This document shows positions 14,160-25,704 of a stretch of 26,789 bases of DNA, piece by piece. Origin of the DNA: Burkholderiales bacterium. GTDB lineage: Bacteria; Pseudomonadota; Gammaproteobacteria; Burkholderiales; Burkholderiaceae. The stretch is taken from the NCBI GenBank assembly GCA_947372535.1, contig CANBUA010000028.1:1-26789 (forward strand). Reading direction: 5' to 3'. The notes under the pieces are model-generated. The model worked only from the letters and a program-made list of their open reading frames with translations. It did no database searches and was not told the DNA's origin. The position numbers and the translations under genes were made by a program. Numbering within the stretch: position 1 is the first letter of the stretch; each line of letters begins with the position of its first letter.

Positions 14160-15113
14160 ATGGCCATCCAATGGTTCCCCGGTCACATGAACGTGACCAA
14201 AAAAGCCATCCTTGAGCGCATCAAGGAAATCGATGTCGTCATCGAGATGCTGGATGCGCGCCTGCCTGGCTCCAGCGCCAACCCCATGCTGGCCGAGCTG
14301 ACCGGCTCGCGGCCCAAACTCAAACTGCTCAACAAGCAGGACGTGGCCGACCCGGTGCGCACCGAGGCCTGGCTGGCCTGGTACAACGCCCGGCCGAACA
14401 CCCGCGCCATCGCGATGGACGCCAGCGACACCGCACCCGCCCAGCGCCTGATCAAGGCCTGCCGTGAGATCGCGCCCAACCGGGGCGGCATGGACAAACC
14501 TTTGCGCGTGCTGATCTGCGGCATCCCCAACGTGGGCAAGTCCACGCTGATGAACACCTTGCTGGGCAAAAAGGCCGCCAAGACGGGCGATGAGGCCGGC
14601 ATCACCAAGGTCGAGCAGCGCAAGAACCTGGCGCCCGATTTCTACCTGTTCGACACGCCCGGCATGCTCTGGCCCAAGATCACGGTCGAGAAAAGTGGCT
14701 ACCACCTGGCCGCCAGCGGCGCAGTGGGCCGCAACGCGTATGACGACGAGGAAGTCGCGCTGGAGTTGCTGGCCAGCCTCAAAGGCCCCTACGCTCAGTT
14801 GCTGGCCGCGCGCTACAAGCTCGAGGCCGTGGACACCATCCCCACGCAGCATGATGAGGAACTGCTGGCCGAAATCGGGCGCAAGCGCGGTGCCGTCATG
14901 AGCGGTGGGCGCGTGAACCTGACCAAGGCCTCTGAGATCTTGCTCAACGATTTCCGCACGGGCATCCTGGGTCACATCACCCTGGAGGCCCCGGCCGAGT
15001 TCGAGGTCTGGTGGGCCGAAGGCGAAGCTTTGGAAGCTGCCCGACAAGCCGCCAAACTGGCACGGGGCAAGAAGGGCAGCCGCGCCCAGACCGATCCAGA
15101 CCTTGAAGAATAA
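14160..15113 (+). CDS. ylqF: Ribosome biogenesis GTPase YlqF
   Basis: A 317-residue circularly permuted GTPase (YlqF/RbgA family). The permuted order is visible: G4 NKQD at residues 58-61, then G1 GIPNVGKS at 121-128, and G3 DTPG at 165-168. The N-terminus [13 protein letters not shown] is the family signature. RbgA of Bacillus promotes late 50S subunit assembly; the betaproteobacterial homologue is probably similar. The start at 14160 is the family start; a 16-residue upstream extension is unlikely. It follows dusC by 75 bases on the same strand. The C-terminal helical domain ends with a Lys/Arg-rich stretch. Confidence 0.93.
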
Positions 15114-15165
15114 TGTCGGCCTGATCCATCGATCCTGCCCCTGACCCATCGCCTGAGGCCCTGTC

Positions 15166-15528
15166 ATGACCCAAGTGCTGCTCATCATCGAACCCAACGG
15201 ACAACGCCAGGCCCGCACCCAGGCCGAGGCCCGGATCGCCTATGACCGCATGGTCGCTTTCGGGCAGGACCTGCAGTCGCGAGGCCTGCTGCTGGCCAGC
15301 CAATCGCTCAAGTCACAAGCCGATGCCAGCCGCGTGCAGGTGCGCGATGGCAAGGCGCAGGTGGTGGACGGCCCCTTTGCCGAGGCCAAGGAAATGGTGG
15401 GTGGCTTCTTCATGCTGAACTGCCAGACGCGCGAAGAGGCGCTGGCCATTGCCCGCGAATGCCCGGCTGCCGAATGGTGCACGGTGGAAGTTCGCTCGCT
15501 GGCACCTTGCCACGAAGAAGCGCTCTGA
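15166..15528 (+). CDS. YciI family (DGPF domain) protein, copy 1
   Basis: A 120-residue protein of the YCII/DGPF fold. The signature DGPFAEAKE is at residues 68-76, followed by the VGGFFML strand. It belongs to the DGPF group commonly encoded beside ECF42-type sigma factors. The family is a ferredoxin-like dimer with a conserved His/Asp pair suggested to be enzymatic; no activity is established for this subgroup as far as I know. It is the first gene of a same-strand run: yciI, yciI, SRPBCC, sigma factor. TGTCGG at 15114-15119 resembles the -35 element found before the second copy, but no matching -10 lies 17 bases downstream. Confidence 0.9.
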   Translation: MTQVLLIIEPNGQRQARTQAEARIAYDRMVAFGQDLQSRGLLLASQSLKSQADASRVQVRDGKAQVVDGPFAEAKEMVGGFFMLNCQTREEALAIARECPAAEWCTVEVRSLAPCHEEAL

Positions 15529-15544
15529 ATTTCTGAGCGACGCT

Positions 15545-15573
15545 GGTCGAAAACCGGCGAGCTCGTTCGTCGT
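15545..15573 (+). promoter_or_regulatory. Predicted ECF sigma promoter of the second yciI gene
   Basis: GGTCGA at 15545-15550, a spacer of exactly 17 bases, then CGTCGT at 15568-15573. Start codon 15603 is 30 bases further, with GGAGAG at 15592-15597, a normal leader. The same arrangement with identical CGTCGT and a TGTCGA occurs at 24131-24159 before the YciI-VOC gene. As I recall, ECF42 promoters have TGTCGA and CGTC-like boxes. I infer that the neighbouring sigma factor uses this site. Confidence 0.6.
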
Positions 15574-15602
15574 GCTCATGAAACCTCAAATGGAGAGATC
15601 CC

Positions 15603-15980
15603 ATGCGATTCATGATCATCGTCAAGGCCACGGCGGACACGGAGGCCGGCGGCATGCCATCGCCCGAACTCGTGGCGTCGATGGCCAGCTACCGCGAAGC
15701 ACTTGTCAAGGCCGGCATCCTGCTGGATGCATCGGAGCTGCAACCATCGCGCAAAGGCTGGCGCATCCGTCATGCCGATGGACAGCACATCGTCACGGAA
15801 GGGCCGTTCAAAGACACGCGCGGCCTGATCGCGGGCTACACCATCATCCAGGTCCGCTCACGCGAGGAAGCACTGGAATGGACGCGCCGCTTCCCATCGC
15901 CCAACGAGGCCGGACTGGACGCCGAGATCGAGGTGCGCCAGTTGTTCGAGCTCGATGATGTCGCGCCCGGCCAGGCTTGA
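15603..15980 (+). CDS. YciI family (DGPF domain) protein, copy 2
   Basis: A 125-residue YCII-fold protein starting MRFMIIVKA, the usual DGPF-group opening. The core motif is EGPFKDTRG at 66-74 (Glu instead of the first Asp), followed by GLIAGYTIIQV and the EEALEWTRRFP segment. It is closer in sequence to the N-terminal half of the distant YciI-VOC protein (shared MRFM-I-KA opening, KAG.. and PS.KG stretches) than to copy 1. Its own GTCGA-N17-CGTCGT element precedes it. It is probably transcribed with the SRPBCC and sigma genes. Enzymatic role unknown. Confidence 0.9.
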   Translation: MRFMIIVKATADTEAGGMPSPELVASMASYREALVKAGILLDASELQPSRKGWRIRHADGQHIVTEGPFKDTRGLIAGYTIIQVRSREEALEWTRRFPSPNEAGLDAEIEVRQLFELDDVAPGQA

Positions 15981-16005
15981 TGACCCAACCCAAGGAGAGT
16001 CCCTC

Positions 16006-16536
16006 ATGCTCAAAGCCATCCTTTTCACGGCCGCCGCCGCCGTCACCCTGCTGCTGGCCTATGCCGCCACCCGGCCCAACACCTTCGCGGTGGAACGCCA
16101 CCTGGACATCGCGGCCACGCCCGCCCAGCTGCACCCGTTGATCGTCGACCTGCACCAGTTCAACACCTGGAACCCCTACAACCGCAAGGACCCGACCATG
16201 CAGGGGCAGTATTCGGGCCCAGCCAGCGGGCCCGGTGCGGTCTACGACTTCAAAGGCAACAAGGATGTCGGCAGTGGGCGCATCACCGTCACGGGCTCGT
16301 CACCTGAGCTGGTCAACATGAAGCTGGACATGTTCGAGCCCATGGAAGGCCACAACCAGGTCGAGTTCAAGCTGACACCGCAAAGCCCGAGCACCACGCG
16401 GGTCACCTGGGCCATGCACGGCCCCAGCCCCTACATCGCCCGGCTGGTGGGCATCGTCCTGAACATGGACAAGATGATCGGCGGGGATTTCGAAGCCGGC
16501 CTGGCCAACCTCAAAGCCCAAGCTGAAAAGCCCTGA
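16006..16536 (+). CDS. SRPBCC family protein with N-terminal membrane segment
   Basis: A 176-residue protein with an N-terminal hydrophobic helix (LKAILFTAAAAVTLLLAYAA), likely a membrane anchor or signal, then a START/SRPBCC-type lipid- or ligand-binding fold: VERHLDIAATPAQLHPLIVDLHQFNTWNPY is the usual opening strand/helix, and VTWAMHGPSPYIARLVG plus a C-terminal helix close it. Start 16006 follows AAGGAG with normal spacing. It sits 25 bases after the second yciI and 26 before the sigma factor, and SRPBCC/polyketide-cyclase proteins do occur near ECF42 loci. Ligand is unknown. I infer membership in the same operon. Confidence 0.86.
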   Translation: MLKAILFTAAAAVTLLLAYAATRPNTFAVERHLDIAATPAQLHPLIVDLHQFNTWNPYNRKDPTMQGQYSGPASGPGAVYDFKGNKDVGSGRITVTGSSPELVNMKLDMFEPMEGHNQVEFKLTPQSPSTTRVTWAMHGPSPYIARLVGIVLNMDKMIGGDFEAGLANLKAQAEKP

Positions 16537-16562
16537 CACCCACGCCAACACCATGCACGCCC

Positions 16563-17864
16563 ATGGCCTCGACAACGACAACGAGCACCACGCACCAGGC
16601 CATCGAGGCGGTCTGGCGCATTGAATCGGCAGGCATCGTCGCCGGTGTGGCCCGCATGGTGCGCGACCTGGGCGTGGCCGAGGAGCTGGCCCAGGACGCA
16701 CTGATCGCGGCCCTGGAGCACTGGCCTCGCGACGGCGTGCCTGATCGTCCAGGCGCCTGGTTGCTCACCACCGCGCGCCACCGGGCGCTGGACTGGCTGC
16801 GTCGGGGCAAACTCATGGACAGCAAACTCGACAGCCTGGGCGCCGACATGGCAGCCCTTGAAACGAACCACACGCCGGATTTCGTCGACGCGCTGGATGC
16901 CGCGCGTTCGGATCAGTTCGGCGACGACATGCTGCGACTCATGTTCACGGCCTGCCACCCAGTGTTACCGGCGCCGGCCCGCGTGGCCCTCACGCTCAAG
17001 GTCCTGGGCGGCCTGAGCACGGCCGACATCGCGCGGGGCTTCCTGGTCAGCGAGACGACCATGGCCCAGCGCATCGTGCGGGCCAAGCGCAGCCTGAGCG
17101 AGGCCCAGGTGCCTTTCGAGATCCCGCGGGACGAGGACCTGGCCCACCGCCTGGGCTCCGTGCTGGAGGTGATCTACCTGGTCTTCAACGAAGGCTACAC
17201 GGCCACGGCGGGCGATGACTGGATGCGCCCGGCCCTGTGCAGCGAGGCCTTGCGCCTGGGTCGCATGCTGGCCGAGTTGGCGCCCGAGGAGGCCGAAGTG
17301 CACGCCCTGGTTTCGCTCATGGAAATCCAGGCTTCGCGCTCGGCGGCACGCGTCGATGCCCAGGGCAAGCCAGTGCTGTTGCTGGATCAAAACCGCGCGC
17401 GCTGGGACTGGCTATTGGTGCGGCGCGGCCTGCATGCCCTCGCACGGTCGCAGGCGCTCTCACGCGATCAAGCCAAGCCAGCCGGGCCGTATGCGCTGCA
17501 AGCAGCACTGGCCGCCTGCCATGCACGTGCTCACACGGCTGACGCCACCGACTGGCACGAGATCGCCACCTTGTACGATCGCCTGTATCGAATGAATCCA
17601 TCACCCGTGGTCGAACTCAACCGGGCGGTGGCCGTGGGCATGGCTCAGGGGCCGGCAGCGGGCCTGGCCATTGTCGATGCCTTGCATGAAACGGGGGCCC
17701 TTGCCGGCTATCAATGGCTGCCCAGCGTGCGCGGCGATCTGCTACACAAGCTGGGCCGCTGCGAGGAGGCCCGTGCCGAATTCCTGCGTGCCGCCGAATT
17801 GGCAGGCAATGCGCGCGAGCGCGAACTCATGCAGGCACGTGCCCAAGCCTGCCTTCAGGCCTGA
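16563..17864 (+). CDS. ECF42-like RNA polymerase sigma factor with C-terminal extension
   Basis: A 433-residue sigma factor, far longer than the roughly 190 residues of standard ECF sigmas. Sigma region 2 spans about 15-82 (ELAQDALIAALEHWP, ARHRALDWLRRGK) and region 4 about 125-178 (DIARGFLVSETTMAQRI, RAKRSL). Residues about 190-433 form a helical, TPR-like extension that ends YQWLPSVRGDLLHKLG, then RCEEARAEFLRAAELAGNA, a hallmark of the ECF42 group. That group has no classical anti-sigma factor and is linked to DGPF genes, as here. I infer that the extension controls activity. No anti-sigma gene is adjacent. Confidence 0.9.
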   Translation: MASTTTTSTTHQAIEAVWRIESAGIVAGVARMVRDLGVAEELAQDALIAALEHWPRDGVPDRPGAWLLTTARHRALDWLRRGKLMDSKLDSLGADMAALETNHTPDFVDALDAARSDQFGDDMLRLMFTACHPVLPAPARVALTLKVLGGLSTADIARGFLVSETTMAQRIVRAKRSLSEAQVPFEIPRDEDLAHRLGSVLEVIYLVFNEGYTATAGDDWMRPALCSEALRLGRMLAELAPEEAEVHALVSLMEIQASRSAARVDAQGKPVLLLDQNRARWDWLLVRRGLHALARSQALSRDQAKPAGPYALQAALAACHARAHTADATDWHEIATLYDRLYRMNPSPVVELNRAVAVGMAQGPAAGLAIVDALHETGALAGYQWLPSVRGDLLHKLGRCEEARAEFLRAAELAGNARERELMQARAQACLQA

Positions 17865-17881
17865 GCGCGCCGGGCCGCGCT
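17864..17881. terminator. Inverted repeat between convergent sigma and TMEM175 genes
   Basis: AGCGCG at 17864-17869 and CGCGCT at 17876-17881 pair exactly around a 6-base loop, filling the 17-base gap between the two stop codons. It lacks a T-run but could terminate both directions. Confidence 0.4.
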
Positions 17882-18466
17882 TCAAGCAGCCGGGTGCATC
17901 AGCACGTGTTCGATGCGCCGGTCGGGCACCAGCCAGGTCAGCGCCACCGCCACATAGCCCGCCACCGAGATCCACGGGCTGACGAAAGCAAGCGGGATGG
18001 CCGCCGCATAAACCACCACCGACAGCTTGCCCTTCAGGTCGCGCCCCGTCGCGCGGGCCAGCAAAGAATCCTCGGGCTCGGCCGAGATAAGCGTGCGCAG
18101 CAAAATCCAGTACGCGATGGCGGCCATCATCAACACACCGCCATACAGGGCCACGGGCACGGCCGCGAAGTGGTTCTCGCCCATCCAGCCCGTCACGAAG
18201 GGGATCAGCGACAACCAAAACAGCAAATGCAGATTGGCCCACAGCGCGCCGCCGCTGACCGTGTGCACCGCGTGCAGCATGTGGTGGTGGTTGTTCCAGT
18301 AGATGCCAACGTAGACAAAGCTCAGCACGTAGCTGAGGAAGACCGGCATGAGCCCTTGCAAGGCCCCCAGGTGCTCACCATGGGGCACCTTGAGTTCAAG
18401 CACCATGATGGTGATGATGATCGCCAGGACCCCGTCACTGAACGCTTCGAATCGTGTTTTGCCCAA
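17882..18466 (-). CDS. TMEM175 family potassium channel-like membrane protein
   Basis: A 194-residue membrane protein. The family signature RFEAFSDGVLAI is at residues 5-16, in helix 1, where TMEM175 proteins keep FSDG; the following TIMVLELKVP also fits. About six hydrophobic helices are visible, including VFLSYVLSFVYVGIYW and LLFWLSLIPFVTGWMG. Prokaryotic TMEM175 proteins form tetrameric, weakly selective K+ channels. The start is TTG at 18466, the only in-frame position that gives the family N-terminus. It lies 48 bases downstream of the CDF exporter on the same strand and may share its transcript. Physiological role unknown. Confidence 0.88.
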   Translation of the reverse strand: MGKTRFEAFSDGVLAIIITIMVLELKVPHGEHLGALQGLMPVFLSYVLSFVYVGIYWNNHHHMLHAVHTVSGGALWANLHLLFWLSLIPFVTGWMGENHFAAVPVALYGGVLMMAAIAYWILLRTLISAEPEDSLLARATGRDLKGKLSVVVYAAAIPLAFVSPWISVAGYVAVALTWLVPDRRIEHVLMHPAA

Positions 18467-18514
18467 GGCCGCTGCTCCGTTGTCACTGCCAGTGGTCCAT
18501 GATAGCCAAGCCCC

Positions 18515-19456
18515 TCAGCTGCCCACGTGATCCAGGTCCGGCCGATGCCAGGGGTCCACATGGGTCATCACGTTGAGCACACGGTGGCGCACCATCACCC
18601 GTTGACGCGCGTCCACCGCGATGTCATGACCGGCCTCCACGCTGAGCAGGGCATCGACCTCGATGTGCACATCGACCACGATCATGTCGCCCATCTTGCG
18701 CGTGCGCACGTCGTGCACCCCGCTGACGCCCGGCGTGGCCTGCAGGGTCTCGCGGATGGCCTGCACCTCTTCCTCGTTCGCTGCGCGGTCCACCAGGTCC
18801 TGCGTGGCATCCCAGGCAAAGGACCAACCCATCTTGCCGATCATCAGCCCGACAACCAGGGCCGCGATGGGATCGAGGATGGGGTAGCCCATCAGGTTGC
18901 CCGCGATGCCCAGCCCCACCACCAGCGAAGAGGCCGCATCCGAGCGCGCATGCCAGGCATTGGCCACCAGCAGGCTGGACTTGACGCGACGGGCCACCGC
19001 GATCATGTAGCGGAACAAGGCCTCCTTGGCCAGCAAGGCGGCGCCCGCCACCCACAGCGCCACGCCATGCACGGCCGGGATGGCCTCGGGCTGCTGCAGC
19101 TTGTTGACTGCCGACCACAGCATGCCCGCGCCCACGGCCATGAGCATGGCGCCCAGCAGCAGCGAGGCGGCCGTCTCGAAGCGGTGGTGACCGTATGGGT
19201 GATCGGCATCAGCGTCCTTGCGGCTTTGGCGGGCGGCCATCAGCACCACGAAGTCGGACAGCAGGTCGGACAGCGAATGCACGCCATCGGCAATCAGGCC
19301 TTGCGATTTGGCCAGCAGGCCCACCACGATCTGCAACGTGCTGAGCACCACGTTGACAACCACGCTGACCCAGGTGCTGCGCGAAGCAGCAGCCGAGCGT
19401 TGGGCAGCGATGAATGGGCCGTCGTCGGCGTCTTCGATCGGATCGTCGAAATTCAT
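18515..19456 (-). CDS. Cation diffusion facilitator (CDF) family transporter
   Basis: A 313-residue inner-membrane divalent cation exporter. The CDF signature SQGLIADGVHSLSDLLSD carries the first metal-site residues (His60, Asp64; Asp57 nearby), and the second pair HxxxD is His168/Asp172 in NAWHARSDAASS. This His/Asp pattern is typical of Zn/Co-type exporters, though Fe or Mn cannot be excluded. After about six helices, the cytoplasmic dimer domain (about 210-295, GVSGVHDVRTRKMGDMIVVDVHI) follows. The start is ATG 19456; a TTG two codons upstream is possible. It is divergent from the helicase gene with 87 bases between. Confidence 0.92.
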   Translation of the reverse strand: MNFDDPIEDADDGPFIAAQRSAAASRSTWVSVVVNVVLSTLQIVVGLLAKSQGLIADGVHSLSDLLSDFVVLMAARQSRKDADADHPYGHHRFETAASLLLGAMLMAVGAGMLWSAVNKLQQPEAIPAVHGVALWVAGAALLAKEALFRYMIAVARRVKSSLLVANAWHARSDAASSLVVGLGIAGNLMGYPILDPIAALVVGLMIGKMGWSFAWDATQDLVDRAANEEEVQAIRETLQATPGVSGVHDVRTRKMGDMIVVDVHIEVDALLSVEAGHDIAVDARQRVMVRHRVLNVMTHVDPWHRPDLDHVGS

Positions 19457-19543
19457 GGTCAAAGCGCTCCGGCTCGGTCAAAGTCTGGGTGATGAGCGCC
19501 GAGTATCCCTCCAACACCTGCGGTCTGCCTTAGAGTCCATCCC

Positions 19544-21505
19544 ATGACCGACGACGCCATTTTCCAGCCCAAAGGCATCGCACCCACCGACGAGCAGCGG
19601 GCGATCCAGCTCGAGCGGCACAAATGCGTGATCGTCGAGGCCAATGCGGGCGCGGCCAAAACCACCACCCTGGCCTTGCGGCTGGCTCAAGCCATTGCGC
19701 GTGGCGTGGACCTGGAGCGCGTGCTGGTGCTGACCTACACCGATGCCGCCGTGACGGCCCTGCGCCAGGCCCTGGAGCGCATCGGCGTGGCCGCCAGCGT
19801 GCGCCAGCAGTTGCGCATCCAGACCTTCGACGAGTTCTGTGCCGAACGCCTGCTGGGCATCGAAGGCAGCAAAGTGCCGGCCTGCACCACGCCCGAGCAG
19901 CTCAAGCCCCATGTGCTGCTGGCCATCGAGCGCGTGCTGGCCAATGACGAGGACCGCCACCGCGACGAGTTCGCCATCGAGGGCGCTGGCGAAGGCATCG
20001 TCGAAGGGCTGCTGGCCTCGTTCTCGTGGCTCAAAGGCACGATGCAACTCACGCTGGAGGCCTTCGACCAAGCCTTGACGCCCACGCTGGCCGCCGAGCT
20101 GGGCCACGACTACCTGACCTTGCGCGCCTTCCGCGTCTTCGAGCACCTGCGCCGGGGCGGTCACCCCGATCACCACGCCTTCCGCGCACGCGACGATGCG
20201 ACCTACGACCTGGCCAGGATGCTGCTCGACGAAGAAGCCTTTTTCGAGCAGGTGCATCCGCTGACCTTGGGCCTGCACCTGGTCCTGGTCGATGAAATGC
20301 ACGACACCAACCGCGCCATGTTCACGGTCTTGCAGCACCTGCTGACACGCAACGGCAAGGCCGCGTTCGTGGGCGTAGGCGACCGCGACCAAGTGATCCA
20401 TGCGGTCGCCGGGGCGGATGCCACCTTCATGGGCGAGGGCTTCGACCGTGGCATCGCCCCGGCCCATCGCCTGCCGCTGACCGCGTCTTATCGCTTCGGC
20501 GCGACCTTGGCGCGGCATGCCGGCCGCTTGGCGCGCAAGCCCTGCGCCTCGGGCAAGGACCTGGACACACCCGTGCTCATGGTTGCCTGCGAGAGCCCGC
20601 TGGAGTCCAACCGCCACATCACGCTGGCCATCCGCAACCGCCAGGGTCTGGCCGACAAATCCACCGCCTCGGCACTGGCCATCTTGCTGCGCCTGCCGCA
20701 CCAATCCGTCGAGTTGGAGAACCACCTGCTGGACCAGGGCGTGGACTACCGCACCCTGGGTTTTGACACCTATTTGATGCGCCCCGAGGTGCTCTTCGTG
20801 CGCGGCCTGATCGCCCATGCGCGTGAAGATTTCGCCGCCATCGAGCGCCCGGAGACCCGCGCACGCATCCTGCAGGCCCTGCTGATGCTCAGCGGCTCAT
20901 CCGTGCAGACCCGCTCTGACGCCGACGACGACCCGCAGAAAGTGACCCGCCAGGCCATCCAGGAGGTCTCGGCCAACCCGGCGTTGCTGGGCTATTTCAT
21001 GGACAACCACGTGCTGCGCAACACCCACGCCTCCGCACGCCGGCTGATCGAAGCGGCCACTGAGGTCATCGCCGAGAACACCACGGACATCCTGCTGCAC
21101 CGCTTCGTGCAGGCCCTGCAACCCGAGGTGCTGGCCGCCCGCGTCATGGTGCGCCAGCAAGACATCGAGCAGGTCAGTGCCAACATCGGCGGCCTGATCG
21201 AATCGGCCTCCACTTTCGACAACGTCGAGTCTTTTTTCCGGGCCATGAACGGGCGCGAGATCCGCCAGCAGGCCATGCGCGGCAAGGACTGCGTGGTCAT
21301 CGCCACCATCGAAGCGGCCAAGGGCCTGGAGTTCGACCACGTCTTCATGCCGGGCCTCAATCGCGGCGAATTTGCCGTGGGCGGCAACACCACCGACAAT
21401 CGCAACCTGCTCTACGTCGGCATGACCCGCGCGCGGCACCAATTGACCATCCTCCACCGGCCCGGCGCCCCCAGCAAATACCTCATCGACGCAGGCCTGC
21501 TCTGA
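19544..21505 (+). CDS. UvrD/Rep-like superfamily 1 helicase with degenerate Walker A
   Basis: A 653-residue SF1A helicase. The Q motif PTDEQRAIQ is at 14-22 and motif I is EANAGAAKTTT (32-42): Lys39 and Thr40 are kept but the usual Gly before Lys is Ala38. Motif Ia is VLVLTYTDAAVTALR. Motif II is DEMHD (250-254), His in place of the usual Gln. Motif III appears as GVGDRDQVIHAVAGAD, motif V as ATIEAAKGLEFDHVFMPGLN, and motif VI as LLYVGMTRARHQL. These define a UvrD-type ATPase that is somewhat diverged. No RecB-like nuclease domain is seen at the C-terminus. It is followed after 54 bases by a NYN-LOTUS gene on the same strand. DNA repair or RNA/DNA hybrid work is plausible; the exact role is unknown. 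Confidence 0.9.
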   Translation: MTDDAIFQPKGIAPTDEQRAIQLERHKCVIVEANAGAAKTTTLALRLAQAIARGVDLERVLVLTYTDAAVTALRQALERIGVAASVRQQLRIQTFDEFCAERLLGIEGSKVPACTTPEQLKPHVLLAIERVLANDEDRHRDEFAIEGAGEGIVEGLLASFSWLKGTMQLTLEAFDQALTPTLAAELGHDYLTLRAFRVFEHLRRGGHPDHHAFRARDDATYDLARMLLDEEAFFEQVHPLTLGLHLVLVDEMHDTNRAMFTVLQHLLTRNGKAAFVGVGDRDQVIHAVAGADATFMGEGFDRGIAPAHRLPLTASYRFGATLARHAGRLARKPCASGKDLDTPVLMVACESPLESNRHITLAIRNRQGLADKSTASALAILLRLPHQSVELENHLLDQGVDYRTLGFDTYLMRPEVLFVRGLIAHAREDFAAIERPETRARILQALLMLSGSSVQTRSDADDDPQKVTRQAIQEVSANPALLGYFMDNHVLRNTHASARRLIEAATEVIAENTTDILLHRFVQALQPEVLAARVMVRQQDIEQVSANIGGLIESASTFDNVESFFRAMNGREIRQQAMRGKDCVVIATIEAAKGLEFDHVFMPGLNRGEFAVGGNTTDNRNLLYVGMTRARHQLTILHRPGAPSKYLIDAGLL

Positions 21506-21559
21506 CACTTCTTGCCAGCTTGACCTGCCTGATCCCAACCACAGGAAAAACACCCACAC

Positions 21560-23086
21560 ATGGCCTCTCCCCAAGACCACATCAGCATGGCGCTGTTCTG
21601 CGACTTCGAGAACGTCGCCCTCGGCGTGCGCGATGCCAAGTACGACAAGTTCGACATCAAGCGCGTGCTTGAGCGCCTGCTGCTCAAGGGCAGCATCGTC
21701 GTCAAGAAGGCCTATTGCGACTGGGAGCGCTACAAAGGCTTCAAAGCCACCATGCACGAGGCCAACTTCGAGTTGATCGAGATCCCGCATGTGCGCCAAT
21801 CCGGCAAGAACTCGGCCGACATCCGCCTGGTGGTTGATGCCCTGGACCTTTGCTATACCAAGTCGCACGTCAACACCTTCGTGATCATTTCGGGCGATTC
21901 TGACTTCTCGCCGCTGGTCTCCAAGCTGCGCGAGAACGCCAAGCACGTGATCGGCGTGGGCGTCAAACAATCGACCTCGGACCTGCTGATCGCCAACTGC
22001 GACGAGTTCATTTTCTATGACGACCTGGTGCGCGAGAGCCAGCGCGCCGCCCGCCGCGATGAAGCACGCGACGACTCCCGTGACGCGCCACAACAGCCGC
22101 GCCGCACGCCTGAGGAAGAGCGCCAGCGACGCGAAACCATGGAGAGCCGCCGCACCAAGGGCGTCAACATGGCGGCCGAGACCTTCGAGGCCATGGTGGC
22201 CGAGCGTGGCGACAGCCGCGTCTGGGCCTCGGTGCTCAAGGAGGCCATCAAGCGCCGCAACCCCGGCTTCAGCGAAGGCTATTTCGGCTTCAAGACCTTC
22301 GGCAACCTGCTGGAAGAAGCCCAGGTGCGCGGGCTGCTGGAGTTCGGGCGTGATGACAAATCGGGCGCCTATGTGACGCGTGGCAGTGGCGTGCCCTCGG
22401 CACCCACACCCCGAGCTGACAACGCGCCGGTGCAACAGGAACAAGCAGCGCGTGCGCCCGCTTCAGAGCCCTTGCCCAGGCGACATGCCTTTCATCCGTC
22501 CGCAGCCCCGTCGGCCGAGGAGCAGGAACAGGCACACCCGCAACCTGAGGGCAACCGCCGTGGCAACCGTGGCGGACGCAACAACGGTGGCGGCCGGCCC
22601 CAGCCATCGCAGCAACAACAGCCCTCGTCGCCGGCTTCGGCCCGTCAGATGGCCGCTGAAGTGGCTGCGCAACTCATGGCCGAAGAGGACGGGCCTGCGT
22701 TCATGGACGCTGAACCGCCACTGACTGCCTCAGAGCCCGCCCCATCGGCCGAAACCGCGCATGCCACGGCGCCCAGGCAGCGTCAACGGCAAGGTGGCCG
22801 CAGGTCATCGGGTCAAGGCCGTGGCCGGGATCGTGACAACCAGCAGCCTGCCTTCGAAGCGGCTGCGCCAGCGGCAGCAGCTCAGGCGCCCTCACCCGCA
22901 CCCGTCTCGCCGCCACCTCAGGCTCAGCCCGAGGCCAGCGCGAGCGAGCCTGCAGCGCCCAAGCGCAAAGCGCCAGCCCGCAAGAAAGCCGCCACCACGG
23001 CCGAAAGCAGTGCGCCCGCCGAAGCGCCGGCACCGCGCAGCCGCCGGCCCGCCAGCAAAAAGGCTGTCAAGCCAGATCAAGGCTGA
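21560..23086 (+). CDS. NYN domain protein with LOTUS/OST-HTH domain and disordered tail
   Basis: A 508-residue protein. The NYN (PIN-like) ribonuclease domain occupies about 8-160 with the acidic residues expected for metal-dependent catalysis: Asp15 in FCDFENV, Asp87 in NSADIRLVVDAL, Asp113 and Asp115 in SGDSDFSPLV. A charged linker (160-203) leads to an OST-HTH/LOTUS domain at about 205-273 (FEAMVAERGDSRVWASVLKE, then KRRNPGFSEGYFGF), a fold that binds RNA, notably G-quadruplexes in some cases. Residues 280-508 are low complexity: Ala/Pro/Gln/Arg, ending in a Lys/Arg-Ala-rich tail (KRKAPARKKAA). AGGAAAA precedes the ATG. It probably cuts or surveys RNA; the target is unknown. Confidence 0.92.
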   Translation: MASPQDHISMALFCDFENVALGVRDAKYDKFDIKRVLERLLLKGSIVVKKAYCDWERYKGFKATMHEANFELIEIPHVRQSGKNSADIRLVVDALDLCYTKSHVNTFVIISGDSDFSPLVSKLRENAKHVIGVGVKQSTSDLLIANCDEFIFYDDLVRESQRAARRDEARDDSRDAPQQPRRTPEEERQRRETMESRRTKGVNMAAETFEAMVAERGDSRVWASVLKEAIKRRNPGFSEGYFGFKTFGNLLEEAQVRGLLEFGRDDKSGAYVTRGSGVPSAPTPRADNAPVQQEQAARAPASEPLPRRHAFHPSAAPSAEEQEQAHPQPEGNRRGNRGGRNNGGGRPQPSQQQQPSSPASARQMAAEVAAQLMAEEDGPAFMDAEPPLTASEPAPSAETAHATAPRQRQRQGGRRSSGQGRGRDRDNQQPAFEAAAPAAAAQAPSPAPVSPPPQAQPEASASEPAAPKRKAPARKKAATTAESSAPAEAPAPRSRRPASKKAVKPDQG

Positions 23087-23110
23087 CAGGCCGACCTGAG
23101 CCGCGGCAAC

Positions 23111-23128
23111 ACGAACCACCGAGTTCGT
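23111..23128 (+). terminator. Hairpin after the NYN-LOTUS gene
   Basis: ACGAAC at 23111-23116 pairs with GTTCGT at 23123-23128 around a six-base loop. It is followed by TCTAT, a weak T-rich tail, and lies between convergent genes. Confidence 0.45.
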
Positions 23129-23132
23129 TCTA

Positions 23133-24050
23133 TCAGCCAGGGCCTTGATCGCCCTTGAACATGGCTTGGAGCCGACGCTCGATCTCTTGGGGCGTCGGGT
23201 CCTCGACATGGGTGGCGATCATCCATTGGTGCCCGAACGGGTCAACAATGTTGCCGCAACGGTCGCCCCAGAACTGGTTCTGAACCGGCATCGTCACCTT
23301 GGCGCCGGCTTGTTCGGCGCTGGCAATGACCGCGTCGGCATCAGGCACATAAACCGTGACCGTCGAGCTGGAACCGCCCACCGTGAGCGGGCTGAGCGAG
23401 CCATATTGCGGCCGCTCTTCGGTCATCATGAAGCTGGCCGGGCCCACTTGGAGCTCGGCATGCATGAGCTGGCCATCGGGGGCATCGAAACGCATCAGCA
23501 CTTGCGCCCCGAACACCTGTTCGTAGAACGTGATCGCCCGGTGCGCATCCTTGATGACGAGGTAAGGCGTGGCACCACGTGGCGGAGGCACGGCCATCAC
23601 CTGAGCGGATGCCGACGACGTGCTGGCGAGCTGGGCATCCATTTGCGCCTTCAATTGGGCTTCTTTGTCCTTGAGTTCCGGCGTCATGGCATCACCAAAA
23701 TCTTCGGCCTCGAAGACCTGGCGTAACTCGACTTCACAGTCGCCAAGCGACGGGTTGGGACAGCGCTTGAGCCACTCGATGGCTGCGGCCTTGCTGGGCA
23801 CCTGCCAGACCCAGAAGCCGGCGATCAGCTCTTTCGTCTCGGCAAAAGGGCCATTGATGACCGTGCGCTGGTTGCCCTCAAAGCGCACGCGCGCCCCTTT
23901 GGCACTCGGGTGCAGGCCATCGCCGGCCAGCATCACGCCCGCCTTGACCAGTTCTTCGTTGAACCGGGTCATGTCGGCCAGCATTTGTTCGCTGGGCATC
24001 GTGCCCGCTTCGGAGGCCTGGTCGGCCTTGATGATCACCATGAATCGCAT
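23133..24050 (-). CDS. YciI (DGPF)-VOC/glyoxalase-like fusion protein
   Basis: A 305-residue two-domain fusion. Residues 1-120 are a YCII/DGPF domain (opening MRFMVIIKAD, motif NGPFAETKE at 66-74, Asn in place of the first Asp). A charged helical linker (about 122-150) follows. Residues about 154-290 are a VOC/PhnB-like domain: TPYLVIKDAHRAITFYEQVF, then LMHAELQVGPASFMMTEE, and WGDRCGNIVDPFGHQW. VOC proteins bind a metal and act on small molecules or confer resistance. The 5' region has a TGTCGA-N17-CGTCGT element like the one before yciI copy 2, so I infer control by the window's ECF sigma. AGGAGAAG precedes the ATG at 24050. Confidence 0.92.
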   Translation of the reverse strand: MRFMVIIKADQASEAGTMPSEQMLADMTRFNEELVKAGVMLAGDGLHPSAKGARVRFEGNQRTVINGPFAETKELIAGFWVWQVPSKAAAIEWLKRCPNPSLGDCEVELRQVFEAEDFGDAMTPELKDKEAQLKAQMDAQLASTSSASAQVMAVPPPRGATPYLVIKDAHRAITFYEQVFGAQVLMRFDAPDGQLMHAELQVGPASFMMTEERPQYGSLSPLTVGGSSSTVTVYVPDADAVIASAEQAGAKVTMPVQNQFWGDRCGNIVDPFGHQWMIATHVEDPTPQEIERRLQAMFKGDQGPG

Positions 24051-24106
24051 CGTCTTCTCCTGACAGGCTTGGTGCCCGATGTGGCTGGATCGGTGTAGCT
24101 CTACAA

Positions 24107-24123
24107 AGGCTCGACTTGAGCCT
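24107..24123. repeat. Inverted repeat in the leader of the YciI-VOC gene
   Basis: AGGCTC at 24107-24112 and GAGCCT at 24118-24123 are exact inverted repeats with a 5-base spacer, between the two candidate promoter elements and the start codon. It could form an mRNA hairpin or be an operator. No further evidence. Confidence 0.3.
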
Positions 24124-24130
24124 CATGACC

Positions 24131-24159
24131 ACGACGGATGGGCGCCCTCAGTTTCGACA
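24131..24159 (-). promoter_or_regulatory. Predicted ECF sigma promoter of the YciI-VOC gene
   Basis: On the minus strand, TGTCGA (24159-24154), a 17-base spacer, and CGTCGT (24136-24131). The spacer length and CGTCGT are identical to the element at 15545-15573. The start codon is 80 bases further. A weaker second match (AGTCGA at 24116-24111, 17-base spacer, CCGATC at 24093-24088) lies closer to the start codon, so tandem promoters are possible. Confidence 0.6.
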
Positions 24160-24192: not shown

Positions 24193-25704
24193 TCAAGGTT
24201 TGTCGGTCGGCGCGTCCATCTCGTTGACATGGCGCAAGAAGCGCTCGTAGAACTGGATCATCTCGGCGTAGTTGGCCACCCCGATGCGCTCATTGGTGCC
24301 GTGGATGCGCGGCAGGTCCTTGGCGGTTGCATGGATGGGCCTAAAGCGCAGGATGGTGTCGGTCAGGTCCGCGAAATGCAGCGAATCCGTGCCGCCGATC
24401 AGCAGGCCGGGCGCCACCACCGTGTCAGGTTGAAGCTCGCGCAGGCTGCGGGCCAGCGTGCGATAAGCCGGTGAATCGGTGCTGGACACCGAGGTGGCCT
24501 CCGAGCCCTTGGCCTCGCGCTCAATGCTCACGTCCAGGCCCTCGATGGCACGCTTGACATGCTTGATCACCGCCTCGCTGGTGTCGCCGGGCAGCAAGCG
24601 GTAGTTGATGGCAACAGACGCCGCGCCCGGCACGCTGTTCTCGCGGTCGCCCGCCTTGAGCACCGTCGGCACGGCCGTGGTGCGCAGCATGGCCTCGCTG
24701 GTCGGTGTCTTTTGCAGCTCGCGCTCGATCAAGGGCTTGGTCAGCCACAGGTTGCTCAGCACGACACGCATGACACCGCTCGCCTCGGCGGCCACGGCCT
24801 CCAATGTTTCGCGCGGCAGACCTTGAAGGCGGGCCGGCATGGGCTGGGCTTCCAGGCGCAGCAAGGCATCGGCCAGGATGCCGATCGCGTGGTGCTTGGG
24901 CGGTTGACTGGAATGCCCAGGCTGGCCGTGCGCGGTGAGCTTGAGCGTGAGGTAACCCTTTTGCGCCATGCCCACCAGGGCCACGGGCCGGCTGACCCCC
25001 GGCACCAAGCCGTGGGTGGTCACCATGCCCTCGTCCAGCACGAAGCGCAGCTTGACGCCTTGCTGGCGCAGCATCGCGGCCACGGGCTGGGCGCCGTCCT
25101 CGCCGCCGACTTCCTCGTTGCTGTCAAACACCAGGTAGATGGTCTGGCGGGGCTTGAAACCGGCCTTGGCCAGCATCTCGACCGCCTCCATCGTGGCCAT
25201 GAGGCTGGACTTGTCGTCCCAGGCGCCCCGGCCCCAGATGAAGCCGCCTTGCACCGCGCCGGAGAACGGCGGGTACTGCCAGTCCTTGTCCGTCTCCAGC
25301 GCCACGGGCACCACGTCCTGATGAGCCAGCAAAGCGATCGGCTGGGCCTTGGGGTCGGTCCCCGGCCAGGTGTAGAGCAGGCCGTGTCGGCCCACGGTTT
25401 GCCGCTTCATGACGGCATGGGCCGCCGGAAAGCTGGTGTCGATCAGGTGGTGCAAGGCTTCGAAAGCGCTTGCGTTATCGCCTGCATCAGACCAGATGGT
25501 GCGCTGTTGGACAGCCGCGCTCAGGCGTTGGGCGGCGGCGTTGGCATCGACGGCCACGCCGGGTTTGGGTGTGACCTGGATTTGCCGGGAGGGGAACTGC
25601 CAGGTGTGCCAGGCCAGGGCCAGCACCAAAGCCAGCAGCAGCCACAACGTCCACCAAAGCGTGCGCCGAATCAGCGATGGCCGCCGGACCAAAGTGCCAG
25701 CCAT
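24193..25704 (-). CDS. Membrane-anchored M20 family peptidase
   Basis: A 503-residue zinc peptidase resembling carboxypeptidase S. An N-terminal helix (about 14-33, RTLWWTLWLLLALVLALAW) is a likely membrane anchor or signal. Metal ligands are in the M20 pattern: His128 in LLAHQDVVP, Asp163 in GAWDDKSS, Glu197/Glu198 in NEEVGGED, Asp224 in VLDEG; the C-terminal GGTDSLHF segment supplies the last His. The dimerisation/lid domain lies about 240-350. Start 25704 is ATG; an in-frame GTG at 25719 forms GTGA with the glnS stop codon, suggesting coupling, and a TTG at 25728 also exists. It probably cleaves dipeptides or N-acyl amino acids. Substrate unknown. Confidence 0.9.
   Translation of the reverse strand: MAGTLVRRPSLIRRTLWWTLWLLLALVLALAWHTWQFPSRQIQVTPKPGVAVDANAAAQRLSAAVQQRTIWSDAGDNASAFEALHHLIDTSFPAAHAVMKRQTVGRHGLLYTWPGTDPKAQPIALLAHQDVVPVALETDKDWQYPPFSGAVQGGFIWGRGAWDDKSSLMATMEAVEMLAKAGFKPRQTIYLVFDSNEEVGGEDGAQPVAAMLRQQGVKLRFVLDEGMVTTHGLVPGVSRPVALVGMAQKGYLTLKLTAHGQPGHSSQPPKHHAIGILADALLRLEAQPMPARLQGLPRETLEAVAAEASGVMRVVLSNLWLTKPLIERELQKTPTSEAMLRTTAVPTVLKAGDRENSVPGAASVAINYRLLPGDTSEAVIKHVKRAIEGLDVSIEREAKGSEATSVSSTDSPAYRTLARSLRELQPDTVVAPGLLIGGTDSLHFADLTDTILRFRPIHATAKDLPRIHGTNERIGVANYAEMIQFYERFLRHVNEMDAPTDKP

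Follow-up and report, generated by a model that had tools for sequence, protein, structure and literature searches.

Two short elements with the layout of a promoter lie 8.6 kb apart in the stretch of DNA analysed here (26,789 nucleotides of contig CANBUA010000028.1 from a Burkholderiales bacterium, hereafter the window). Each precedes a DGPF gene, and a gene for an ECF sigma factor lies between them. Are these elements promoters that the sigma factor reads, and how far does such a regulon reach? The comparisons described below make it very probable that both are read by RNA polymerase with the ECF42-type sigma factor whose gene is at 16563-17864, with an N17 geometry. The first element, P1 (15545..15573, plus strand), consists of a -35 hexamer GGTCGA, a 17-base spacer and a -10 hexamer CGTCGT. 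It is located within the 74-base gap between the genes yciI1 and yciI2, 5' of a string formed by yciI2, an SRPBCC gene and the sigma factor gene. The second element, P2 (24131..24159, minus strand), combines TGTCGA with the same spacer length and the same -10, so that the first base of the -35 is G in P1 and T in P2. It lies between an M20 peptidase gene on the same strand, ending at 24193, and the gene for a YciI-VOC fusion protein. Both boxes are present exactly as the original prediction had described them, and they are the sole matches to KGTCGA-N17-CGTCGT in the window when up to one mismatch is allowed. In 100 dinucleotide shuffles this pattern is found 0.22 times on average, and two or more matches occur in 1 of the 100.

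The genes behind the boxes can be typed with Pfam, which places the YCII domain (PF03795) in three window genes. These are yciI1 (15166..15528, plus strand), a distant YCII paralogue with no box 5' of it; yciI2 (15603..15980, plus strand; E 1.7e-14), a DGPF/YCII-domain protein and the first gene after P1; and the fusion behind P2 (23133..24050, minus strand), which joins PF03795 to PF00903 (Glyoxalase). The DGPF genes with a box had been claimed to be the most similar pair, and this holds: yciI2 and the fusion share 47% protein identity, against 28-29% for either with yciI1. After yciI2, a gap of 25 bases leads to the SRPBCC gene (16006..16536, plus strand; Polyketide_cyc2, PF10604, E 7.6e-10) and a gap of 26 bases from there to the sigma gene (16563..17864, plus strand). 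A sigma-70 promoter search of 15000-18000 found none, and the three terminators predicted in this interval are all on the minus strand, with none on the strand of yciI2, SRPBCC and sigma. The YciI-VOC fusion is common, with 3513 homologues at E 1e-20 or better; among the 120 of these that were listed, all but P0025 have both domains. One 299-residue fusion, L211, is the same sequence as P0078 (named Albitalea terrae); its gene is preceded by an exact box, and it is 60% identical to the window protein. The window SRPBCC protein is in turn 60% identical to a protein (L213) whose gene, in another genome, is preceded by an exact box of its own. A search of solved structures returned only general ECF, VOC and YciI-type chains. 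Between P1 and P2, at 17882-23086, are genes of TMEM175-type, cation efflux, UvrD-type helicase and NYN-domain proteins; they have no box and look unrelated to the regulon.

The sigma factor has several traits of the ECF42 group. Pfam finds Sigma70_r2 (PF04542, region 2) and Sigma70_r4_2 (PF08281, region 4), no other sigma region, and DUF6596, in agreement with the ECF42-like gene expected between the boxes. Region 4 is matched up to residue 178 of the 433, which leaves a C-terminal extension of about 200 residues with DUF6596 at 196-296. No TPR family was found in the protein by Pfam at E 0.001, and the NCBIfam matches listed were to general ECF models, all below their cut-offs. The ECF42 extension is described as a protein-interaction module rich in TPR repeats, on which activity depends (PMC8999054, PMC9023288). 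A Pfam scan of nine neighbouring genes found no classical anti-sigma domain. The second trait, a DGPF/YCII neighbour, is seen in the three PF03795 genes of the window, and a YciI-type tblastn match is found at 45/45 loci of sigma homologues. The third, TGTCG(A/G)-N17-CGTC before a DGPF gene, is exact at P2 and has G at the first base at P1. The grouping of ECF42 sigma factors with DGPF genes and with TGTCG-type and CGTC boxes, stated in the original prediction, is indeed established, both as a promoter type and as a link (PMC6180224).

The same box accompanies the sigma factor in its relatives. Scanning species genomes with the sigma protein gave the 45 loci, the nearest from Leptothrix (73%) and Aquabacterium (72%). 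TGTCGA-N17-CGTCGT is found at most 220 bases from the yciI start at 42 of the 45 with up to two mismatches and at 37 with up to one, and is missing at three (L007, L039 and L043). Twenty of the loci are from Stenotrophomonas or the like and hence not independent; the other 25 have the N17 box in 22 (up to two mismatches) or 17 (up to one). No other spacer length between 12 and 22 reaches more than 3 of the 45 loci at up to one mismatch (range 0-3). The N14 spacer reaches 32/45 at up to two mismatches and 3/45 at up to one; most of these matches share their -35 with the N17 site and take the repetitive -10 three bases further upstream. At the eight Burkholderiales loci that have both yciI genes (L001-L004, L006, L008, L015 and L019), the box separates these two genes, the arrangement also seen in the window. 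The -10 varies by lineage, with CGTTGT in 18/20 Stenotrophomonas-type loci and CGACG in several actinobacterial ones, and the -35 is kept. Such shifts of the -10, with TGTCGA and N17 unchanged, suggest co-variation with sigma region 2. Loci with an altered -10 and a constant TGTCGA and N17 include L020-L044 (Stenotrophomonas-type), L005, L013, L017 and L045.

Whole-genome scans can show whether the box goes with particular genes. Eight genomes were reached through their sigma loci (G001-G008, of which three lie outside Burkholderiales). Together they contain 27 exact boxes, as opposed to 4 matches of the reversed pattern, with no exact box in G006 and G008. YCII, VOC, AHSA1, DUF1428 or GST genes follow 23 of the 27 (19/23 by comparison with known target proteins, plus 4/4 of G002), or 21/27 without two GST genes that themselves define the GST class there. 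When the spacer was allowed to vary in these genomes, lengths 12, 15, 18 and 21 seemed inflated among the matches listed, probably from codon periodicity, and a same-phase N20 spacer was therefore used as the control instead. Among 120 Burkholderiales genomes, 11 have a close sigma factor (at least 63%, a cut drawn after the match lists had been seen). These account for 35 of 68 exact N17 boxes in the set, compared with 2 of 28 for N20 (Fisher p 2.5e-5). Downstream of the 35 boxes, the first ORF belongs to YCII 13 times, to a VOC-type family 11 times, to AHSA1/SRPBCC 4 times and to DUF1428 twice. Two of the 11 VOC-type genes belong to PF06983, which we take to be VOC-type, and one is cut by a contig end. 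With the classes limited to those of the window itself (YCII, VOC and SRPBCC), the count is 28/35; the five sites outside the listed families are L103, L135, L141, L146 and L148.

The controls behave differently. The box enrichment before DGPF-type genes that the original prediction entails is seen in these relatives as 30/35 target-type first genes, against 0/24 in genomes without a full-length sigma homologue (one of which, G060, has a 50-residue fragment match) and 0/28 at N20 boxes. Because Pfam on the pooled controls (45 ORFs) shows 25 of 40 families, the zeros rest on comparing every ORF of at least 60 residues within 300 bases with known target proteins; no ORF passed the first-ORF rule at 2/24 and 5/28 of the control sites. 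In the distant-sigma genomes of the same set, 2/9 boxes lead into a target-type gene, both YCII. A set of 200 genomes of one family gives the same picture on a larger scale. The 70 with a close sigma (at least 56%, again drawn after seeing the match lists) hold 294 exact boxes against 34 for the reversed control, with at least one in 68 of them. The 111 without a sigma match at E 1e-40 hold 24 against 44, and 19 with a distant or partial ECF42-like match only hold 7 against 6. Since these last genomes have no excess, the exact box is a feature of the close clade. Box counts differ between close and none with a Mann-Whitney p of 2e-30, which overstates independence because the genomes are related.

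The boxes also share features outside the two hexamers. In a logo of 49 target-bearing sites, the -35 is followed by A/T and the -10 is directly preceded by T, while position 20 favors G and position 35 a purine; at 33 sites without a target, no free position carries more than 0.2 bit. In a first matrix, the window sites score 27.1 and 28.4; 32 of the 33 no-target sites fall below both and one reaches 28.6. An independent matrix, built from 86 sites with the window and G001-G008 left out, gives 30.0 for P1 and 31.1 for P2. The best other place in the window scores 3.7, and the maximum in 20 order-1 Markov shuffles is 10.2.

Three other explanations must be weighed against recognition by the neighbouring sigma factor. 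The boxes could be real ECF promoters whose reader is a different sigma factor of this genome, for example a second paralogue from the ECF42 group or an ECF41-type protein, with the neighbour only overlapping in specificity. A second ECF42-like sigma, 34-49% identical, does co-occur in a number of the 200 family genomes, but this explanation is improbable, given that the 19 genomes with only a distant match lack an excess of boxes and that a box lies about 0.5-1.8 kb 5' of the close sigma gene, on the same strand, in 11/11 close-sigma genomes of the 120-genome set. ECF41 sigma factors likewise have a fused C-terminal regulatory extension and a -10 with CGTC. They differ in a SnoaL-like extension (PMC9023288) and, in the Sinorhizobium promoter given in PMC6180224, a TGTCACA -35 in place of TGTCGA; neither was seen in the window genes scanned. 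We give still less weight to the idea that P1 and P2 are alike through duplication of a promoter-plus-DGPF unit, of which one or neither copy is in use. Alignment does reveal shared sequence beyond the boxes, GACGCT-kGTCGAAA on the 5' side and CGTCGTGsTCATGA on the 3' side, so that GACGCT and TCATGA flanks are common to both, and the downstream proteins are paralogous at 47%. Their spacer interiors differ, however, boxes precede different families (DGPF, VOC, SRPBCC and DUF1428), and the TGA-like stretch after the -10 belongs to the general logo rather than to P1 and P2 alone. Chance matches in GC-rich DNA are the least credible of the three: exact boxes do occur without the sigma, at about 0.2 per genome (24 in 111), yet the 33 no-target sites of the logo comparison have hardly any free-position signal and nearly all score below both window sites, which stand more than 26 bits above the next place in the window and start 58 (P1) and 109 bases (P2) before DGPF start codons.

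With the neighbouring ECF42-type sigma as the preferred reader, region 4 would recognize (T/G)GTCGA and region 2 CGTCGT, the fixed 17-base spacer would set the geometry, and a signal would act on the C-terminal extension. Start sites can be predicted from position 35, the 13th base when counting starts at the C of CGTC; this position is A or G in 94% of the 49 relatives' sites. In PMC6180224, the string of the SMc01149 promoter ends at this position in a lower-case letter, the mapped start according to the table note, and that of SMb20475 ends at the same position. By the SMc01149 rule, transcription from P1 would start at or near a G at 15580 (plus strand), 23 bases before the yciI2 ATG, and from P2 at or near a G at 24124 (minus strand), 74 bases before the fusion ATG. 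From P1, one transcript would cover yciI2 and the SRPBCC gene and probably extend through the sigma gene, which would create a positive loop; P2 would drive the fusion gene, 8.6 kb away. Judging from the position of the box, autoregulation of the sigma operon is likely. The box 5' of sigma in the 11/11 genomes lends support to this, and in one other genome, at L195 (G322:C1:1594437-1596865), an exact box directly 5' of an ECF42 sigma gene is a candidate for direct autoregulation. The behavior of Sinorhizobium RpoE10 counts against it, since overexpressing this sigma brought no increase in expression of its own YCII-sigma operon (PMC6180224).

The original prediction was of a local regulon comprising yciI2, the SRPBCC gene, sigma and YciI-VOC. 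This membership is strongly supported by comparison and by mapped Sinorhizobium ECF42 promoters with an identical geometry (PMC6180224), but "local" proved too narrow, with boxes scattered over the genomes of relatives. Because the products are small proteins of ligand-binding or detoxification type, P1 and P2 are probably the local members of a regulon that is dispersed and directed against reactive or toxic small molecules. For a view of its breadth, 60 of the 294 boxes were taken from nine genomes chosen for many listed boxes. The main first genes are YCII (16), VOC (11), SRPBCC (8) and DUF1428 (5), followed by DUF899 (3), S51 (3), MFS (3), RibD_C (2) and GST (2); MATE, YceI, HlyD-type (181 bases from the box) and ECF42 sigma genes occur once each, and three have no family. 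Of these first genes, 38/60 were typed by phmmer against a Pfam-typed set (both GST genes also by Pfam) and the rest by Pfam. Transporter genes of MFS or MATE type lie directly 3' of exact boxes at L222, L245, L209 and L229. The classes under the box (VOC, SRPBCC, GST, DUF1428, DUF899 and efflux) point to a common role in handling toxic or reactive small molecules. On balance, we favor a reading in which the Burkholderiales ECF42 sigma governs about four promoters per genome, and up to eleven, all of one fixed geometry, as a dispersed programme of small-molecule detoxification and export. This programme would span YciI/DGPF, VOC, SRPBCC/AHSA1, DUF1428, DUF899, GST, RibD_C, S51-type and MFS/MATE genes. 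If it is true, the YciI-VOC fusion would unite two regulon members in one gene.

Known ECF42 systems provide points of comparison. Sven_0747 of Streptomyces venezuelae and ECF-10 of Pseudomonas putida, among others, have the same regions 2 and 4, a YCII neighbour and a C-terminal extension roughly 200 residues long; the link of ECF-10 to oxidative stress and antibiotic sensitivity fits a detoxification regulon (PMC8999054). RpoE10 of Sinorhizobium meliloti likewise uses N17 and CGTC, with promoters of the form TGTCGG-N17-CGTC; its -35 ends in G, whereas that of the window boxes ends in A. Among its targets are a gene with a hydrophobic-ligand domain and genes of glyoxalase-like type, which occupy two operons separate from that of the sigma factor. 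Six genes were raised in all, and the rise was two-fold or more for four, which make up two operons (PMC6180224). Thus ECF42 itself, its DGPF neighbours, TGTCG-N17-CGTC promoters and a small scattered Sinorhizobium regulon were already known (PMC6180224). What is added here is the wide dispersed regulon in Burkholderiales, the absence of a box at yciI1 and the predicted start sites. The window differs from the known ECF42-DGPF systems in having yciI2, SRPBCC and sigma in one string, plus a distal YciI-VOC fusion target. Measured against these published descriptions, the Burkholderiales relatives differ in a box scattered over many other gene families. No description of the wide regulon was found among the papers listed by the literature searches, a set that did not extend to the original ECF42 publications or the 2021 classification of ECF sigma factors, so its novelty is unproven; the word ECF42 is absent from the extracted text of PMC3817407. 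The pairing of DGPF/YciI proteins with ECF42 sigma factors is widespread, and a precise box with a fixed spacer makes the regulon readable from sequence in many genomes.

The box can also be used to sort DGPF genes into those inside and outside the regulon. In G001-G008, 30 of 37 YCII matches were scored with the independent matrix. Where the protein starts like yciI2 or the fusion (M[RK][FV][MI]..V[KR]), 13/14 have a box scoring at least 21, with L074 as the exception. None of the other 16, among them classical YciI (MPYVIETFDKP) and yciI1-like genes, scores above 13.3, and intermediate values are seen at L048 (11.1) and L064 (13.3). The window follows this split, with a box for yciI2 and the fusion and none for yciI1. 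The split is not universal, since a third YCII type starting MKYLGLAY (L088, L096, L106 and L244) also has exact boxes. We rejected yciI1 as a regulon member: it has no box, nor do the yciI1-type genes scored in relatives, and it is probably outside the regulon. A separate feature was observed 5' of yciI1 in relatives, an inverted repeat CCTTGTC...GACAAGG that was not seen before yciI1 in the window sequence. The repeat is conserved between Leptothrix (L001:8132-8168) and Aquabacterium (L002:8129-8165), is overlapped at both loci by TGTCGA-N15-CGTCAA, and may be an operator for yciI1.
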